Source: Magnolia sinica
Taxonomy: Eukaryota > Streptophyta > Magnoliopsida > Magnoliales > Magnoliaceae
NCBI RefSeq assembly: GCF_029962835.1
Contig: NC_080588.1
Span: forward strand, 65,868,001 to 65,932,000
Reading direction: 5' to 3'
DNA: 64,000 nt
Notes under the pieces: model-generated
What the model was told of the DNA's origin: nothing
The model's database searches: none
The model's input: only the letters and a program-made list of their open reading frames with translations
Translations under genes and position numbers: made by a program
Part shown: piece after piece, positions 11,937 to 22,882 of the stretch
Numbering within the stretch: position 1 is the first letter of the stretch
How the letters are laid out: every line of letters begins with the position of its first letter

Positions 11937-13653
11937 TCCAAAAGAACTGAATTTTCTTCAGTTCTACATATTTTTGGCACTGCGGTTGCGATATCCTATT
12001 TCTAGCTAAAATGGTCACAAGACGCTGGTGATCATGCTTTCAGTATGCTTCTGGATGCCATTTTAAAGGTCGTTTCTCATGTAGATTTTACATCTTCCCT
12101 TTGATCTTCCTGCTCTACTGTTTTTATTACAGGATTAATAAGGCTATAATAAAATGCTTGTGAATTTCAACTGAGCCCGACTTCAATGCACACAAAGCGT
12201 GCTGGCCCATATCTACCACCACTAAAATATGGATGGCAGGAATCTAGCAAGCATTTCGAAATGGGATTTCAAAATACCCATTTTGAAACGAGTGTTAAAA
12301 ATTTAAAAATTCCTGCCCCACCATCATTGGATATTGCACACCAATTCCTATTGCACAATGGGCAGGTGCCGATTCTTCTCTGTTGTAATAATAGTTGAAT
12401 CGTTTAAAGCTAAATCTAATTTATTGTAATGATTCATTAATATGTTGAAAATTTTCTTTTAATCTACACTTAAAAGTCATTAAGTGATCCAAAATAAATA
12501 AAAATGAAAATATAATGTCATCCTCTAACAAAAAGTACTGTCGTGGTTGATCTGTGGAGCAGCTTGAGCAGAAACATGTATGGGCCACATCCCAAAGTTT
12601 ACGATGATTGAATGATCTTAACCATTCAATCAGTGGCTGGAAAATGGATGGTTATAAAAGATAAACGAATCATGAGTGAGTTCCTGCATGTAGCAGGTAA
12701 AAGACATAAATCAAACCATTAGGATTGTCCAGCCACTAAATAGGGTTAATCTTTGAGTGACTACTGACTACACAATGCTCGGGCCAAGAGATTGTACAGC
12801 ATTATGTAGTAAAAGAATTCAATACGAAATTAACTGATTTGAAACTTTTCCTGTTACCACTCAAAATGGAATACTGATATATCTGCTGTCATTTCTACTT
12901 TCTGTAAAGGAGTTCTACGGTCTGCCTACGCCTTCCTGTACACAGTGCCAAGGGACATGCATGTGGGATCCGAACCGTCCGTCAGATGACTTCTTTTTTC
13001 ATGGCATTCGGCATGGGTGTGGGATGCCACACACTAATGTGGCAGTATGGACCAACCCAAAATTGAAGCGGTCCACACACAATCGCAACAAAATAATAGA
13101 TAAAAATTGGTGGGTTGGACAGATGACCCATGCCCACCATACAGGTGGCTTACCTAGTGAGTGGACCAGCCTCATTTTTGAGCCAAATAATGGATGGGGT
13201 CTCCTAATGAATGACCAAATTTCGAACATTTGAGGTGCTGCAAGTCCCATTCAAAACTCTCTCAGTTTATGCCGTTCAAGGGAGTAGGCAGACCCGACCA
13301 GACAACTGTTTCTGTTGGTGGTCCAGTCCAACCAATGGTCTGACCAGGTTGCACCATTCCAAACCAGGCAGCTGCTTGAAGTACAATGAATAAAATAAAC
13401 ACTGCCACATAGACTGATATTGGTGTAATCATGCATGCGCTTGAATTCAACTCATGAACAAGATACAAAAAATAATAACATGATCATTAGCTACGAGGCT
13501 TGAATAATCATAACTGTGACAAAATTCGAAAAGAAATAAACCCTAATAACCCTACTCCAAATGGATTTCAGATCAGGCTATTTATTCTTTACAGTAACTC
13601 AACTTGGTTACATCTACCTTTATATATATCATCTACCCGGGCATCTAGAGACG
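11937..13653. other. Intergenic DNA between SYMRK and BRK1
   Basis: No gene recognised. It contains GTGGGCC-type repeat phrases (about 12570-12720 and 12955-13260) and AT-rich stretches. The 3' UTR of BRK1 should occupy the right end, because BRK1 is read leftward and stops at 13654. Confidence 0.4.
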
Positions 13654-15585
13654 TCAACTGAAAACAGAGGGGTTAGCTGATGCTGTGCCAACTTGAACTT
13701 CAATCAGCTCTAGACGACGCTCCAACATATCAAGCTTTTCATTCAGTGATGCCAATTTGCTCTTTGTTGTAGCCTCTGGAAAATAATGGAATAGTTATAA
13801 GAATAGTTGATCAATAAGTGACTAAATCCCATAAGAATCTATCATTGTCTTTTTCAGACCATAAGATGGGTTTGAACCCAAGACACTGAAGACTTACTAC
13901 CATTTAAGCTATGGGCATGAACCCAGAAGCTAGCATTGTTAAAGCTAGCATTGTTATGATTAAGATTAACTACATAATGGTTGATAGAAGGGGTGCAAGC
14001 TTCTTAGGATAATAGAAACTTGCTCATTGCTTCAGAAGGACATAACAGATAGGTGACCCATGCCGCTGCCGATCACATAAATGAATGTCAAATTGGTAGG
14101 CATCTTTACTTTGCACTCACCCACTTACCTATTCATTATCATATATGCCTTATCCCAAGTTCCCAACTACTTGAGGTGGACTACATGAATACTATTCCGC
14201 CATTCTGATGTAGGCCCACGACCAGTGGAAGGACCCAGCATGTGTTGATTTTGGATTGTTTGTTGCAAGATTTAGGGCCTAAATGTCAGAGATCACATTT
14301 GGTATTTGTGGAAGAAGGGTGAGCTGATGTGGAGGATATGATTGAAGATCTTGGGAGTACTTGAAAGGATTTATTTTTGCTATTTTAGGCCAAATCTTTG
14401 TTGGTGGCATTTTTCTTATCTTGAATAAACTATATATCAATTTGAAATCAATCTAATAGTTCAGAATTTTCATTAAAGATTCATACAGATTGCCTTTTAG
14501 GGTCTATAAAAGGGGCGGTGGTGTAGAAGGTAGGCAATACACATTCTCTAAGTTTTGAGTTTTCTTGAGTATTGAATATCAATAAAGTTATTTCTCCTTC
14601 TCTACTCAAATATTTCTTGTGAATTTATACGTGTTCATTTCTTTGTGATTTGGGTTTAGAGATCACATTGAACTGATAAGCGGGTTGGACCACATTCCAC
14701 TATCAAGGACCATATCCTCAGTTAAACCATAGATCATCAAGTCTTTTCTCACTAATAACCCCACATCCTTTTGAGCCGTCCCCTTGCTTCTGTTTTTTGT
14801 TGATGAATGGATTCCCCTTGCCCTCACCTGTTGGAATCCAAATTATAGAATCTAGAGGAAAGGATATGTATAGTTTCCTTGGCTCTTGAAGTTATCCAAG
14901 GCCATGGTTTGATGATCCAAAACATTTAACTAATGGTTCCTAATCATGGAACACAAACATCCTAGATGGGACAATCCTATGTCTTTGATTGTCGGCCTGC
15001 AAGCCGACAGTGAATAAAGAGGAAAAGGCTCAGCAACCATCCACACCTAGTGGAACAAAGGCCAAAGATTGGATGGGTAGGATCCAGGAACCACAGAGAG
15101 TTACGGGTCATTGTCCAGCCTAGTGGTTCCCATCAGATCAAAGATATGGATAACCAAACAATGGGACCCTCTTGTACAAACTCACTACCCAAAGACATTA
15201 AATATCCTGGAACCAAGGATCACATAATTTCTCACAGAATCAATCCGTGATTAAAATGCTCAGTGTGAAAAGAAACAGAACCATCCTACTATATAGAAAC
15301 TGATATTATGTTGAGCAGACATTAGTGCGAAATCCAGGAGTCCAACCATCACTGCTCAAACATGCAAGGAAATAAAACATGTAAGACAAGGTATTTCAAA
15401 TCCTGACAGAGGATATGATCATCCAAACGAAAATGGTAATCCAATTGGGGCTGTCAATGCGCTGGGCTGCCCTGACAGGCTTGCAGGCCTGGCCTGCCTC
15501 GGGCTGGGCTTGGAGTTTCAGGTGCAAGGGCCGGGTTCAGGCTTCAAATATGAGCCTGTATATTAATTGGGCTTTTCATCTTCCC

Positions 15586-15625
<40 letters not shown>

Positions 15626-18600
15626 CAAAGCTCTCTCTCCCTCTCGAATGTTGCAGTGATTCCTCAGTCTAGTTGGAAGCTCTATCCGGTGGTTGGGTGG
15701 AGGTGGAAGCGAGTGGCTGCTTCGATCTTTCTAGGGAATGGGCTTGTGGACAGTACTTGAAGGTTTCCTGCTTCTTGCAAATGCCTTGGCAATACTAAAT
15801 GAGGATCGATTCCTTGCTCTGATAGGGTGGAGCTTTTCTGAATTCTCAAGGGGCGGGACAAAGTCACTCAAGGGGCAGATGATGGGGCTCATCTATGCAA
15901 CCCAATACATGAGGCTTCCACTAATAGCTTTCAATACCATCACCATTGCCATGATGTTGGTGTCTGGGTGAGGTTTGAACTTCTGCTCGGGTTTGATGAA
16001 TGTTGCCAGGCTTGTAATATGCAGTCAAGATCTCGGTTTGGCTGACAACTCCTTGTCTTAACTTGGGTTAGGATAGCTATGGATGCACTTCCATATTTTA
16101 AAAAAAAAAAAAAAAGGTTTTGGGTTTCAGGGGTGAGGCAAAGACAGCCGAAGGAGATGGGTTGCTGGAAGAGATGGGCGGAGATCGCCAGGAATATGTA
16201 GAGCCTAATAAAATGCAGCAGCAGCAGAGGCTCAAACAGCATGCCTTGATATAGCAAGCTCTCCTGTAGCAGTAGCAATCCCTCTACCATCCCAACATCT
16301 TGGCTCCTCATTAGGTATTCCCATCCCTCCTCTCAAATTCCATTTGATTCCGTTCCGCCGTTCCGTCCTTGTTCAGATTTCAATTCTCTGTCATCTGCTC
16401 TGTGCTTGATTGCTAACGCTTGGTGGGGTTATATCTTGATTTCATGGGTTGGGATTTTGAACAAGTATTTGGAATTTCATGTGAATCCTTTGTTGAAAAT
16501 AGATTTTTGGGTTCGGGTTCAGGCTTGACCGGGCCCTGCATATGTTTTGCGGGCCGGGTTCAGGCTGGACTATTTTAGCCTGTCACAGGCCCGGGCCGAG
16601 TTCAAGCTGGACTATTTTACCCCATCACGGGCCCGGACTGGGTTTGGGAATAGTTTGAAAAACACGGGATGGGCTTGGACAGAGCTTGGCCTAGCCCTAA
16701 CCCAGCCGTTGACACCCCTAATTCCAATTCTTAGTGGAGATTATCCTCATGGGATTTTTACTGCAAAGTTCCTTTAGGATCTGGATTTTACCAAATGATG
16801 CCTTGAGGAATAGATATTCCTAGGCATGGCTTTTCCAGAGCAGAAAATACATTACTGCCCTCTATTTTTCTTTACAACAAAGTGGAGAATCGAGATTGTG
16901 GGGCCCACGTGGTATGTGCCTCCCATCCAACCCGTCCAACAAATGCACACCAACATTATTATTATTAGAACTGACAATATAGTGGATCCAATCATAAGGT
17001 GAGCCAATCTATAAAAAGTAATATACACCATTCAAATATCCCACTTTAAGTGTAGCCCATCTGATAATCCGATTGGCCTAATGTTTTCTTCTGATTCTTC
17101 TGAGAAATAATCTCTCTTTGAACCTATGTATTCTATCATGAACTTGATAATACATTCAACACACCTTTATTTATTGCCTCTGGATAAAGGTCTCCCTTTT
17201 TTTTTCCTTTTCTAGAATTATTCAATGGAAGGATATTTGGCTAGGGGATCAAAGGTTGAGGGAGGTTTTCCCTCACTTAGCGATAGAGGTGTACACGAGT
17301 AGAGTCGAGCCGAGCTTTGCCTAGCTCGTGCTCGAGTCCCAGCTCGGCTCGGCCTTGGAATAGTAGCTCGTGCTCGACTCGTCCGAGTTCGAGCAGAGTT
17401 TTCGAGTCGAGTCTGTTTCGAGTTCAAGTTTTCGAGCTGAGTATCGAGTTCCGAGTTCGAGTAGTGGCAGCCGGCAAGGGCGACAGAACACCGGACTGGC
17501 AAGGCCGCAAGTGCGGGCGACAGCCGACAGGGGCAGCTGTGCGATGCGGGTAGAGGGTTGAGGGTGAGGGAGAGAGTAGAGAGAGAGAGAGGGAAGGTGA
17601 GGATGACTGGATGAGGGAGAGAGTAGAGAAAGAGAGGGAGGACGGACGTCTCGCCGGCCGCCAGAAGAGAGGGAGGACTGGGAGAGGGGTTGGGTGCACG
17701 TGCAGGGTACTATTCAAAAGGGGTAGGGTTTTTTTTTTTGTTTGGGAAGTGTGTATATATATATATATACACACCTTGTACACGAGTCAAGTCGAGCCGA
17801 GTTCGAGTATTATTCAAGTCGAGCTGGGTCAAGCTCGAACTCATTTCGAGCTCCAAAAATCAGCTTGAACTCGGCTTGAGTCAAGTCGAGTCGAGCGAGT
17901 TACGGAGCTTTTGCTGCTCGTGTACAGCTCTACTTAGTGATGATTTTGTCAGAAGCTAATTTGAAGGTAGATGAAGTCGTTTGGGCTCCCCTTTGTAGGA
18001 GAAATCTTGATGAATCAGAATTTGAGGATCTGTTGATTTTGTTAGAAATGTTGAGTAAAGTTCGCCCATCGATTTTGGATAGGGACTTGTAGAGGTGGTT
18101 GGACGATAAGTCTGGTAAGTTCTCGGTTAAATCGCTATACCTTTCAATTAGTGGTGGATCAAACACCAATGTGGTAAATTACACAACATGTGTGGAAATA
18201 TGGTGCTCTGCCAAAGGTAGCCACTCTTGCTTGGTTAGTGGGTAGGAACAAAGTGCTCACAATTGACAGTTTGCGGAAGAGGAATATGATTTTACCAACT
18301 GTCTATCTCCTATGCTATCAAGATGAGGAATCGGTTAATCATCTCTTTATGCATTGTCCATTCGTAAGAAAGATGCGGGAACACTTCTTTCTCATGTTTG
18401 GCATTCATTGGGTCTTGCCAGGCTCCATAGAAGCTCTCTTGTTAGCATGGCACGGTAGGGGTAAAGGGAAGATAGGGAAAAAGATTGGCATTTATGTTTG
18501 CTAGTTGGAATCTGGTCGCTATGGTCAGAAAATAATCTTCGCTGTTTCAGGAATCGGAAGTGAAATATCGTGGAAGTTCGTAATTACGCCAAAGATCTTG

Positions 18601-21409
18601 TTAAGGAATGGGTAGGTGAATCTTTGGATATAGCACCTTCTCAGATTCTCGATAGCTGGGTAGGTTTCTAACTAGTTTTTCTTGGTCTTTCTTGTAATTC
18701 TTTGGCTTTTGCCTTTTTGCAATAAAATCATCAATGTTAAAAATAAAAAAGAAAAGAAAAGAAAAGAAAAGAAAAGAAAGAAAAGAAAAGAAAAAGAAAA
18801 GGAAGGATAAAGAAGCTAGAGGACAATCAACTAGATCTTTTTTGCATAATGGTATCTGTTGGTTAACTGGGACAGTCACGTACATTGGTAGTTTCTTGCA
18901 AGTTTTTGGAAAACAAGTGGGAGGCAATTGTCATATCCAACAGGAAGGATGCACAAAAATGAATAAGGAATACCATGTAAATCCTACTGCTATACTGGCA
19001 TGAATGCTTATAAGCACCAAGAAGGATATGAAACATATTCACAAGTAGAAAAAAGAGATAATTGTACTTCTCATGTTGCAGCCGAAATTCTAGTCCCTTC
19101 TTGAGAATACCAATGACGGGAAGAAAAAGAGTAACATTTACATCTCCTATGGTCACACTAATCGTACAATAGATGCATTAATCCAAATGCATACAAAAGG
19201 TGAGCATGTTTCTCTCTTTTTCCCAAAATTAAAGTCATTGGTCCTAATAGAAGTCTAAGTCATTTCACCTATAGTTGCACAAAGCCTGAAGTGAAGCGGC
19301 ACCAGATTTGGGTGTAGGAGTGGGGAAGGGTTTGTTTCAAAATGCTAATAAATATAAATAGCTAGAAATTGGGAGCAAAAGCACGAGTCCAAAGCATGTT
19401 TCAAAGGCAAGAATGACACTTCGTTGGATCATGCAACTAGCGTAAGCAGCAAGGTGAATAGACTTGGTCCATTGCCTGGGCTAGAGCTACTTAGGCACCA
19501 CAAGCAACACAAGTAAGAAGGAAATCATGCCTCTAATTTTGTTGCTCATCCCTTGGAAACTCCAACATATTATTATAAAAATTGTGAACAAGAGAGGAAA
19601 TATACCGTGCTCAACAATAGCGTTTCCGTTTGGGGTCAACATTACATTTGCACATAAGTGGGGTGCCTTTTTCAATGATTCAAGTTGTTCATTCCCACCA
19701 TGGACGAGCAATGTTGCAAAGAAATCCCTGTAAGAAAATCCTAGCCATCCACTTGTTGGTCTGCAAATGGATGTGGATGGTTTAAGGGGGTGTTTGGATG
19801 CCGGTAAGTTCTCTATGTTGTGACAATAGGTGAAAGTCACAGCTAATCCTGTTTGGATGTAAACTATAAGCCACTAACAGGTAAGTTGGTTTTTATGTTT
19901 GAATAAATTGTAAGTCAGTTGCAAGTAAGAAGCTGTATATCTACACTAAGCAAAGCTTAGAGTAGGGAATCGTTCCAAAATATTATAATCATATAAGAAA
20001 GCTTGGTATTAAATATGTCATTTTGTTAAGCCCATTTAGATTAATATTTGAGCCAATTCTTAAGCTAAACAATCATCAAGTAGGACATAAAGTGGGCCCA
20101 CGAACTCAAAACACTTGCAATGTGGAGAAATAACTTAATATAAGCTTTTGAAAGGAAACTAAAAATATTAATAGTAAATCAGCTATACACAATGTTGTCA
20201 AAAGCGATCGCATAATTGCATAATGCCATCCATATGGCATATGCGATGGTCACATATGCCATATGGATAATATGTGATCGCATAATGGCATATGCGATCG
20301 CATACTTTCCTTTCTTTTCGATTTTTTTTTTTCATTTTTTTTTTTTTTTAAAAACAAGTTGTGCGATCGCATCGCATAAGCAATCAGGTATACGCAATCG
20401 CATAGGATCGCTTATGCCATTTGACAACATTGGCTATACATGGGGAATGAAGAACTAAAACCAACTGCAAATGGCTTAAATGCCGACTATGGTTCCATTA
20501 AAAAAAATGCGTGCATGTAACGTGGGTTAAGTTAGATGATCCATCCATTGACTAATGTTAAGATGATTTTGGGGGCATGATCCATCCATTGACTATTGTT
20601 AAGATGATTTTGGGGGCATGATCCATCCATTGACTAATGTTAATATGATTTTGGGGGCTTGATCCATCTATTGACTAATGGTTAAATGATTTAAAACCAC
20701 ATGCCCCACTTAAGCAAAACCCATGTAATGGGGTTGAGGAATTTGGACTCGGAAATTTCATTTTCTTTACCCATCAAAGGGTTCAAAGGGCCATGATGAA
20801 CATACTAAAAAATTAGGCTGGCGTACTTACCAGATGGGCCACCTTCATGCAAAGAGAATGTTTTAGAAAAAAAGTACAGATGGGTCAAGTGGCCCACGCC
20901 CATAAAAAGAATGATCACCCTCCTTGGTGTCTGTTTTGTATATCGACACCATCCATAAGTTTTGCCAGTTCATTTTATGGCTTGGGCCTAAAAATAAAGC
21001 AAATCCAAATCTCAGTTGAACCACACCACAGGAAACAATGGTGATTGAGTGCCCACCATTAATACTTTTTGTGGGTCACAAAAGTTTTGGGTCAAGCTGA
21101 TATTTGTTGTTTTTTCTTCATCTAGGTCTGTGTGACCTTATTAATAGGTTGGATGGAAAATAAACATTACGGTGGGCATTATGAATTTTTTAATGGTGGA
21201 TGTTCAATCACCACTGTTTCCTGTGGTGTGGCCCACCTGAGATTTGGATTTGCTTCATTTTTGGGCCCACACCATAAAATGAGTAGGCAAAACTAACAAT
21301 GTCGATATATAGAGCAAACATCAAGGTGGCGTAGATGGTCAATCTCATTGAATTGGGGCCATTCAAATGCAATAAAGAAAAAGAAGAGGCACAAAACCCA
21401 ACTGCCCAT

Positions 21410-21464
<55 letters not shown>

Positions 21465-22882
21465 AAATCCTCTTTGCCCTCTTCAATGGCTGCTCTGCTG
21501 CAGATGTTGTAATGGTGGTTGCAGGTAGGTTGTTGGCACGTTTCCACCTTTTCCCCTTGTTTCAAAAATTCGAACTTGGACCTGAAAATCACCTATAGGG
21601 AAGTGACTTCTCACCTCCAAACCCTACAGTTTTCTGGAAACTTTGCTTGTTAAGTGACATACAAGTGAACCCCCCCTAACATAAGAATATAGCCATTGGT
21701 CTCTATGCACCAGGAATAAATCCACCACTCAGATGATTGAGTTTGTTTTATGGAGGGAATTCGGTCCACTCCCATCCATAGTGGTGCATGTGAGATAAAA
21801 GATCCATATTGGTGAAAAGTTGATTCCACCAATAAGGAATTCTTGCCTAAGCAATAACAAGCATTGCATAACTCCCCTTACTAAATCAACATCATCGTCA
21901 TCAAAGAATTGTCCCAAACGTTTGGGGTCGACTTTAGAAATCCTTTCATGACTGTTTTGGCAAAAGTTTGACAACTGGCTAAAACCTCTTACAAAATATC
22001 ATTACGAAACATTAAGCCCTCCAAAAACCTCCCTCTCCCATTTGAAACTCAAAATAAAATCATCAAGCCACATATTTTGGAAGAGCAACATTGCCTGTCT
22101 TTCATACAAAAATTTGAATTGCCTCTGATCTCAAAATCATTTCTAGTGAAGTGCACAAATCCAAAAACCTTTCAACTTTCAAAATCAATAAGAAAAAACC
22201 ACTAGAAGAATTATATGACCCCCAGCCAGAGGATATGTACAGAGTGCTCAGGCAACCCCATGGTCCGGTGACCTAAACCGATGATAGCCATGGAAGCCAT
22301 GCAATGAAAATCTTCCAGACTTTAGCAAATCCAAGCTATCCAATCTTCATCCTTTACACCGAATGTGGGCCCTTGGTATTCTTTACTAGCTGTCTATGTG
22401 CAGGACACCAATCAGTGCTGGGATCTCACAAATCCAGGATATTTATGAGAGAGTGTCCACCCAAAGTTCCGTCCATCAACCCAACAGTCTGTATCATACA
22501 AACTAAGGGTCTGTCTGCAGGACACTCTGTAAAAATCCTCGGACCAAGATCACATAACTGCGAACTTCCCTAAAGAGTGCCAATTCAAAGATCGATGATC
22601 AAGAAATGTTAATTTCACAAACTAAGAGCATAATAACCGTTCAGCTACCGACCAGGTTCGACCGCTTGCAGATCAAACAACCATAACAAGAAAAAACACA
22701 AACATTCAGGAATCTTATACAATAGAGACATAGTATACTGCATACATACCGAACTGAACTAGGAATTCGAAGAGGCGACGGACGTTCAAGGAGATGTGAG
22801 AGATGAATTCTCGATTCTCCCAATCAGCTTGCACTGCGATTCCCACATTAACAGCATTCGTGATCCCTCCAGCCCTCGCCAT
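13654..22882 (-). CDS. BRK1: BRICK1, small SCAR/WAVE complex subunit (two exons)
   Basis: BRK1 (HSPC300) is the smallest subunit of the SCAR/WAVE complex, which activates ARP2/3 for actin branching during polarised cell growth (family knowledge). Read on the minus strand, exon 1 is 22882-22750 and exon 2 is 13775-13654. Together they make 255 bases, 84 residues and a TGA stop. The protein opens MARAGGITNAVNVG, then has the invariant QADWENREFISHIS block, the NVRRLFEFLVQFE junction spanning the intron, and the coiled-coil TTKSKLASLNEKL segment ending NPSVFS. Length fits the plant family (about 85). Donor G|GTATGT and acceptor CCAG|AG are canonical with phase 1. The intron, 13776-22749, is about 9 kb and full of mobile elements, which is large for so small a gene, but both exons are perfect, so I infer the gene works. 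Confidence 0.93.
13860..13930 (-). mobile_element. SINE head (tRNA-derived), in the BRK1 intron
   Basis: On the minus strand CATAGCTTAAATGGTAG resembles a Pol III A box and GGGTTCAAACCC, 30 bases on, is a good B box. It does not fold as a real tRNA gene, so a tRNA-derived SINE fragment is the best reading. The tail was not delimited. Confidence 0.45.
14200..14690 (+). mobile_element. LTR-like sequence (solo LTR or TRIM remnant)
   Basis: TATAAAAGG at 14505, AATAAAG at 14581 about 75 bases downstream, and a CT-rich leader after it match the U3-R-U5 layout of a plant LTR. Exact ends, target duplication and partner LTR were not found, so this is tentative. Confidence 0.35.
15591..15622. repeat. 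(CT)n microsatellite
   Basis: Sixteen CT units, 115 bases before the YOS1-like start codon. A CT-rich leader of this kind is common in plant 5' UTRs, so it may have been captured with the gene. Confidence 0.9.
15738..15971 (+). CDS. YOS1/IER3IP1-like small membrane protein, captured copy
   Basis: The 77-residue ORF is complete. It matches the YOS1 family, small two-helix proteins of ER-to-Golgi transport, through MGLWTVLEGFLLLANALAIL, NEDRFLA, SLKGQ-GLI-ATQYMRLPLI and the VSG C-terminus. Hydrophobic segments span about residues 2-20 and 57-76. Family length is about 77-80. The usual APRGW after NEDRFL is ALIGW here. It lies inside a transposon-like element in the BRK1 intron, in antisense orientation to BRK1, and is followed 128 bases later by A16, so a retrocopy or captured gene is more likely than the master gene. 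No stop or frameshift breaks it. Whether it is expressed cannot be seen from sequence. Confidence 0.7.
   Translation: MGLWTVLEGFLLLANALAILNEDRFLALIGWSFSEFSRGGTKSLKGQMMGLIYATQYMRLPLIAFNTITIAMMLVSG
16130..16314 (+). pseudogene. First exon of an oligouridylate-binding protein gene (UBP1-like), broken
   Basis: From ATG at 16213 the frame reads MQQQQRLKQHA, then a stop, QALL, further stops, QSLYHP-ILAP and a stop, before a GT donor at 16315. This is the Gln-rich N-terminus of plant UBP1 (TIA-1-like) RNA-binding proteins, which precedes the RRMs. Stops at 16252, 16267, 16273 and 16312 are all TAG where CAG is expected. Intron-like sequence follows, so the capture was from genomic DNA. Confidence 0.6.
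17285..17931. mobile_element. hAT-like MITE inserted in the LINE
   Basis: It starts AGAGGTGTACACGAG and ends CTCGTGTACAGCTCT (inverted), with GAGTCGAGCCGAG-type repeats near both ends. Flanks ACTTAGCGAT (17275-17284) and ACTTAGTGAT (17932-17941) match at 9 of 10 positions. Removing one flank restores the LINE frame across FP-L and FVR, so the order of insertion is clear. Confidence 0.75.
18739..18810. repeat. (GAAAA)n A-rich tail
   Basis: AAAAG/GAAAA pentamer run ending the LINE; an expanded poly(A) tail. Confidence 0.8.
18811..20189. other. BRK1 intron, mostly unassigned
   Basis: No coding similarity recognised. At 19787 a GGGGGTGTTTGGATGCCGGT end with TAA beside it resembles a Tourist-like MITE end, related to sequence at 54715, but the other end was not located. 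Confidence 0.3.
20190..20432. mobile_element. Palindromic hAT-like MITE with perfect 8-bp duplication
   Basis: Starts CAATGTTGTCAAAAGCG and ends GCCATTTGACAACATTG. The 8-mer GCTATACA flanks it on both sides (20182-20189 and 20433-20440). The interior is built from GCGATCGCATA and ATATGGCATATGCGAT palindromes. The perfect duplication suggests a fairly recent insertion. Confidence 0.85.
20538..20700. repeat. 41-bp tandem repeat, four copies
   Basis: GATCCATCCATTGACTA recurs at 20538, 20579, 20620 and 20661, each followed by TGTTAAGATGATTTTGGGGG or a close variant. The last copy is the most diverged. Confidence 0.9.
20820..21340. mobile_element. Foldback element of the GTGGGCC family
   Basis: The left arm has CAAATCTCAGTTGAACCACA and CCACAGGAAACAATGGTGAT; the right arm has ATCACCACTGTTTCCTGTGG and CCCACCTGAGATTTGG, their complements. 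The outer arms also pair (AATGAGTAGGCAAAAC against GTTTTGCCAGTTCATT). It is a near-palindrome of about 500 bases. Confidence 0.65.
21413..21459. repeat. (AG)n microsatellite
   Basis: Twenty-three uninterrupted AG units in the BRK1 intron. Confidence 0.95.

Follow-up and report, generated by a model that had tools for sequence, protein, structure and literature searches.

A small hAT-like element lying antisense in an intron of the BRK1 gene of Magnolia sinica is of a very common plant transposon type and holds two pieces of host genes, one derived from genomic DNA and the other from messenger RNA. The element occupies positions 15446-16720 (1,275 bp) of the window, by which we mean the whole stretch of 64,000 nucleotides that was analysed, and contains the beginning of a UBP1-like gene as well as a spliced and tailed copy of a YOS1 transcript (Table 1). 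The initial annotation, made from the nucleotide letters, had placed here at 15436..16721 a hAT-like element that had captured a complete YOS1-like gene and the first exon of a UBP1 gene. Its observation is confirmed as a whole and the element exists, with bounds corrected to those given above. Its interpretation stands for the hAT-like ends, the UBP1 DNA and the antisense site, but not for the capture of YOS1 or for an escape of the YOS1 reading frame from decay if selection is taken as its cause.

Table 1. Features of the composite element, its host gene and its family (positions refer to the window)
Feature	Position	Strand	Evidence and remarks
BRK1 exon 2 (host gene)	13657..13794	-	tblastn, BRK1 protein query, E 5e-18; acceptor TTTTCCAG
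Left target-site duplication AATCCAAT	15438..15445	.	7/8 with 16721-16728
Element 5' end, terminal repeat TGGGGCTGTCAATG and GGGC/GGCTTGG-rich subterminal region	15446..15560	+	matches 8/9 other family elements compared; duplicate TAGGGCTGTCAATG
Spacer with CT microsatellite	15561..15628	+	rearranged between the two duplicates (alignment); 37 bp resemble UBP1 5'UTR CT tract, 32/37
YOS1 retrocopy, 5'UTR exon 1 of C8 gene	15629..15735	+	87% to C8:4662263-4662361
Spliced exon 1 / exon 2 junction	15735..15736	+	donor CTAGA^GTAAAA and ATGCAG^GAATGGG; ~8.7 kb donor intron absent
Yos1 ORF, 77 residues, with stop codon	15738..15971	+	PF08571, E 3.8e-24; CDS + 3'UTR 90% to C8:4671089-4671451
YOS1 3'UTR to CATAT at 16096, then TTT	15972..16099	+	donor homology stops at 16096
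A16 tract, poly(A) tail remnant	16100..16115	+	absent from donor gene; AAAAT repeats in duplicate
Sourceless segment, 94 bp between A-tract and UBP1 piece	16116..16209	+	only genome match is the duplicate (16117-16212 searched)
UBP1-like exon 1 and ~200 bp of intron 1	16210..16508	+	76% counting gaps to C15:74861800-74862119; exon decayed, in-frame TAG codons
Element 3' end, subterminal repeats and terminal repeat CGTTGACACCCCTA	16509..16720	+	family homology from ~16520; 16509-16519 assigned by default
Right target-site duplication ATTCCAAT	16721..16728	.	7/8 with left flank
BRK1 exon 1 (host gene)	22751..22882	-	tblastn, BRK1 protein query, E 1.5e-25; donor G^GTATGT
Family loci with 7/8 or 8/8 flanks			L016, L017, L025, L027, L034, L035, L039, L040

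The element is delimited by terminal inverted repeats, of which the 5' one reads TGGGGCTGTCAATG in the window and TAGGGCTGTCAATG in a second copy described below, and the 3' ones read CGTTGACACCCCTA / CATTGACACCCCTA. Immediately outside them, the flanks AATCCAAT and ATTCCAAT agree at seven of eight positions, as in an 8-bp target-site duplication, and in this respect the ends are as first described. Counted inside the window only, the end motif does not exceed chance (14 matches with at most two mismatches, against a shuffled mean of 17.3). The whole genome (1.84 Gb, 127 contigs) was searched with a degenerate 25-base version of the end, TAGGGNTGTCAAYGGRCYRGGYTGG, taken from other family members. 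This form occurs at 2,738 places with at most two mismatches, one element possibly counting twice, once per end, and its reversed control at none; the window's own 5' end has three mismatches to it by our own count and is hence outside the 2,738. Short terminal inverted repeats are common to many copies, in a form that we take to be hAT-typical, and its end regions, ~115 bp long on the 5' side and 130-200 bp on the 3' side of the element, have many matching loci with ~66-87% identity.

Flank duplications were compared at 24 family loci, comprising 15 chosen end matches and nine of the 12 matches of a second search, with the window copy, its duplicate and L037 (identical to L025) excluded. Eight of these loci have flanks alike at 7/8 or 8/8 positions, their ends lying 397-1,214 bp apart, where by our own arithmetic chance alone would give about 0.08 among the 218 end pairs that were compared; the remaining 16 have no flanks of this quality, L041 and L038 reaching 6/8. 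The interiors of the family elements differ, and that of L039 matches dispersed repeats. From its ends, flanks and relatives we identify the window element as a non-autonomous, hAT-like member of a very abundant family.

The YOS1 piece is a processed copy of an mRNA. In the donor gene on contig C8 the first exon, which is 5'UTR, ends at about C8:4662362 and the second starts at about C8:4671090, with a GT-AG intron of ~8.7 kb between them; in the element the two exons are joined as CTAGGGAATGGG, with one base changed at the joint. At the other end, the resemblance to the donor breaks off three bases short of the A16 tract, the donor continuing with GAGCACG and the element with TTT and 16 A. 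The donor intron is thus precisely absent and the poly(A) is not encoded at the donor locus, and a piece that is both spliced and tailed must have come via mRNA. The 77-residue reading frame of the YOS1 family and the A16 tract were correctly recognised at the outset, but they are parts of a retrocopy of the C8 gene and not of a captured gene. No target-site duplication around this retrocopy was found in either duplicate, where 123 of 300 and 220 of 300 shuffles equalled or exceeded the best match and the left boundary is blurred by the rearranged CT microsatellite. A Yos1 profile search of the genome returned four places, namely the genes on C8 and C4, the window copy and its duplicate, and a text search found no paper on plant YOS1. 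The donor intron itself houses a hAT-like element ~85 bp upstream of exon 2 (L011, about 501-1003), with similar termini and different subterminal sequence.

For the UBP1 piece, the donor is a gene on contig C15 that is presumably UBP1. The match runs from the start codon through the exon end at GTATTC and ~200 bp into the intron, and this included intron sequence demonstrates an origin from genomic DNA of C15. Apart from the duplicate, C15 was the only other place in the genome at which a match to this piece was found. Further downstream, RNA-recognition-motif exons are present in the C15 gene (two of three peptides tested reach the Pfam cut-off), which fits the UBP1 identity, and the UBP1-type exon 1 with its intron start had been rightly named. 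Host gene sequence is found between the ends of one element with its donors elsewhere, as in Pack-TYPE transposons. Since the two donors found sit on different contigs (YOS1 on C8, UBP1 on C15), the two genes are not adjacent outside transposon ends within this genome. On C15, a member of the family to which the window element belongs is located ~1.66 kb upstream of the start codon of UBP1 (L012 1702-2145); given the great abundance of the family, it was not retained as a candidate capture intermediate.

We consider it probable that a Pack-hAT carrying a UBP1 fragment received the YOS1 mRNA by retroposition. A hAT-family element would have taken the UBP1-like exon 1, together with the beginning of intron 1, from C15 as genomic DNA, in Pack-TYPE fashion. 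Separately, a spliced, polyadenylated YOS1 mRNA of the C8 gene would have been reverse-transcribed, and its cDNA would have entered, most likely through LINE-type retroposition, between the 5' end of the element and the UBP1 piece. The composite lies antisense to BRK1 and was subsequently duplicated together with the surrounding intron; its two YOS1 copies now change with no purifying selection detectable. Given that YOS1 is present as a spliced and tailed retrocopy, an RNA intermediate took part in at least one of the two acquisitions, and this one may represent a nested insertion. The UBP1 piece may have been acquired first, a LINE may have been the agent of the second step, and either acquisition may have preceded entry into the BRK1 intron. 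Timing gives no clear order, with K of 0.147 (exon) and 0.186 (intron) for UBP1, and K of 0.079-0.105 in the UTR and dS of 0.205 for YOS1.

The sequences on either side of the YOS1 copy complicate this reading. For the 94 bp to its right no source was found in the genome save the duplicate copy, which points to patchwork repair more than to a clean nested insertion, and as no duplication was found around the retrocopy, a single patchwork repair using YOS1 cDNA may have been at work. The YOS1 copy may also have been inserted into the 5'UTR of a longer UBP1 piece, interrupting it. The right side speaks against this, 16117-16205 having no likeness to the UBP1 5'UTR (score 19, shuffled mean 18.5); the CT spacer on the left does resemble the UBP1 CT tract, but the likeness is one of simple sequence. 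In its last part the 94-bp segment is open in the reading frame set by the start codon of UBP1.

The main rival to retroposition into a Pack-hAT is gap filling, in which a double-strand break in a hAT element already present in the BRK1 intron was repaired in one event with UBP1 genomic DNA, the 94-bp piece and YOS1 cDNA, with no retroposition machinery at the site and nothing mobile later. Such a repair is favoured by the presence of one insertion only, by the abutting of three unrelated pieces and by the failure to find a duplication around the YOS1 copy. A near full-length mRNA copy with a tail is, however, the product of retroposition, and filler DNA is usually fragmentary. The two accounts are not separable by sequence alone, and we regard gap filling as tenable, if distinctly on the improbable side. 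The hAT element might also have taken up host mRNA directly, if the polyadenylated YOS1 cDNA and the UBP1 genomic piece served together as filler in one repair event after hAT excision or abortive transposition. We think this unlikely; if true, DNA transposons would constitute a route that makes RNA-derived sequence mobile without a LINE insertion.

The host gene was located with tblastn, the query being a BRK1 protein sequence. Its exons lie on the minus strand at both sides of the element, which is therefore antisense in the BRK1 intron, as had been reported; this intron is ~9 kb long and has standard splice signals. A second full-length copy of the composite is situated 62 kb downstream (C16:65945728-65947081). 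This duplicate is colinear with the window over 13238-22865 save for a single insertion next to repeated sequence (window 20194-20397), and since its flanks align with the window, local transposition is ruled out and the second copy is a segmental duplicate. Its BRK1 starts at about codon 7, the duplication breakpoint falling within exon 1, and that gene copy is therefore truncated. A nearby second copy of an element may, as here, be a segmental duplicate and should not be taken as proof of transposition.

These results bear on a further alternative, that the composite was built elsewhere and jumped into the BRK1 intron as one Pack-hAT, its YOS1 part already being a retrocopy. Everything does lie within one pair of ends with a 7/8 duplication, and in the available sections of three papers hAT families are able to carry unrelated fillers (PMC8903248, PMC3260210, PMC2528002). 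The flank duplication is nevertheless expected either way, and genome searches found no copy of the composite besides the 62-kb segmental duplicate and no source copy, and we judge a single jump quite unlikely. We found no evidence that the composite had ever been mobile as a whole, and one earlier move would still be compatible with its sequence. Independent copies are the usual mark of such movement, though published counts include single-copy cases too.

The open state of the YOS1 reading frame had been ascribed to an escape from the stop codons that hit its neighbour, a view that the substitution pattern does not bear out. Between the two retrocopies there are eight replacement and two silent changes (dN/dS 1.26), compared with seven replacement and 27 silent changes between the C8 and C4 genes (dN/dS 0.056). 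Parsimony was used to place the changes on branches, leaving out three ambiguous sites; the retrocopy branches carried 13 replacement and 3 silent changes and the C8 branch 1 and 5, numbers that are small. The ratio on the retrocopy branches is unlike that of the C8-C4 pair (Fisher P 1e-4) or of the C8 branch (P 0.011), and is indistinguishable from neutral (binomial P 0.58). The window copy differs from the C8 gene at 22 coding bases, and the pairwise dN/dS of 0.35 between the two arises because a constrained gene branch is averaged with a free one. Stem and window copy together have 13 assigned changes, and 15 random substitutions leave the frame stop-free with a probability of ~0.60 (substitutions only, no indels), so that the open frame needs no functional explanation. 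In the duplicate the ATG has been lost and the start codon is ACG. Purifying selection on the YOS1 reading frame is thus not detectable in these comparisons. That it is a functional retrogene under selection seems very doubtful from these changes, for although the frame is full-length without indels, scores 85.2 bits in the Yos1 profile against 90.7 for the C8 gene and 82.7 for the C4 gene, and has the low pairwise ratio to the C8 gene, the neutral-like changes on its branches and the ACG of the sister copy stand against it. A transposon may hold an intact reading frame that is neither a captured nor a functional gene. Both gene pieces look like decaying relics, and the case appears tidy yet largely ordinary.

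MER20 is a hAT element. It provides the one precedent that we found for a retrogene inside a DNA transposon, human ARF6, for which the authors leave capture versus recurrent retroposition open (PMC8277862); unlike the present case it comes from an animal, and the available part of the paper mentions no second, genomic gene piece. The literature searched, partly represented by incomplete texts, yielded no spliced copy of a gene in any hAT element of a plant, which is not proof of absence. The assertion that gene capture is much less known for hAT elements holds only in part. Such capture has been in print since 2008 for Hatvine-6 of grapevine (PMC2528002) and is described in accessible passages on Ds elements of maize (PMC3260210), on Pack-hAT of rice and maize (PMC8903248) and on animals, where 208 of 370 Pack-TIRs are hAT (PMC8277862), although the maize authors do call capture rare for hAT elements (PMC3260210).

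As far as the available sections of these papers extend, the closest likenesses are as follows. Pack-hAT (PMC8903248) shares with the window element the non-autonomous hAT structure, the 8-nt target duplication and the host coding DNA inside, and differs in that one of the two pieces here is a processed mRNA copy, the main text of that paper having no words starting with intron or retro. The maize elements Ds2 and Ds-l4 (PMC3260210) have hAT ends, filler DNA and gene fragments with introns, like the UBP1 part here and unlike the YOS1 part, which has no intron. Their authors argue for capture via genomic DNA since the intron remains, a route that the UBP1 part fits and the YOS1 part, being without its intron, does not. 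Hatvine-6 (PMC2528002) is similar in having shared ends and a remainder that is often unique and corresponds to exons and introns, but Hatvine-6 copies share a transposase coding sequence, and none was seen in the window element. The main text of a 2026 review of plant gene capture has no words starting with hAT, retrogene or retrocop (PMC13317346). The composite offers a worked example in which DNA- and RNA-derived gene pieces are adjacent in one element and the intron test separates their routes.

Divergence between the window and its duplicate is uneven, with K of 0.015 on the side of BRK1 exon 2 and 0.061 on the other side of the element, a four-fold difference of the pattern seen after partial gene conversion. 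Within the element, 43-46 bp of the captured UBP1 intron (window 16436-16481) are repeated in the duplicate (L009 6162-6242).
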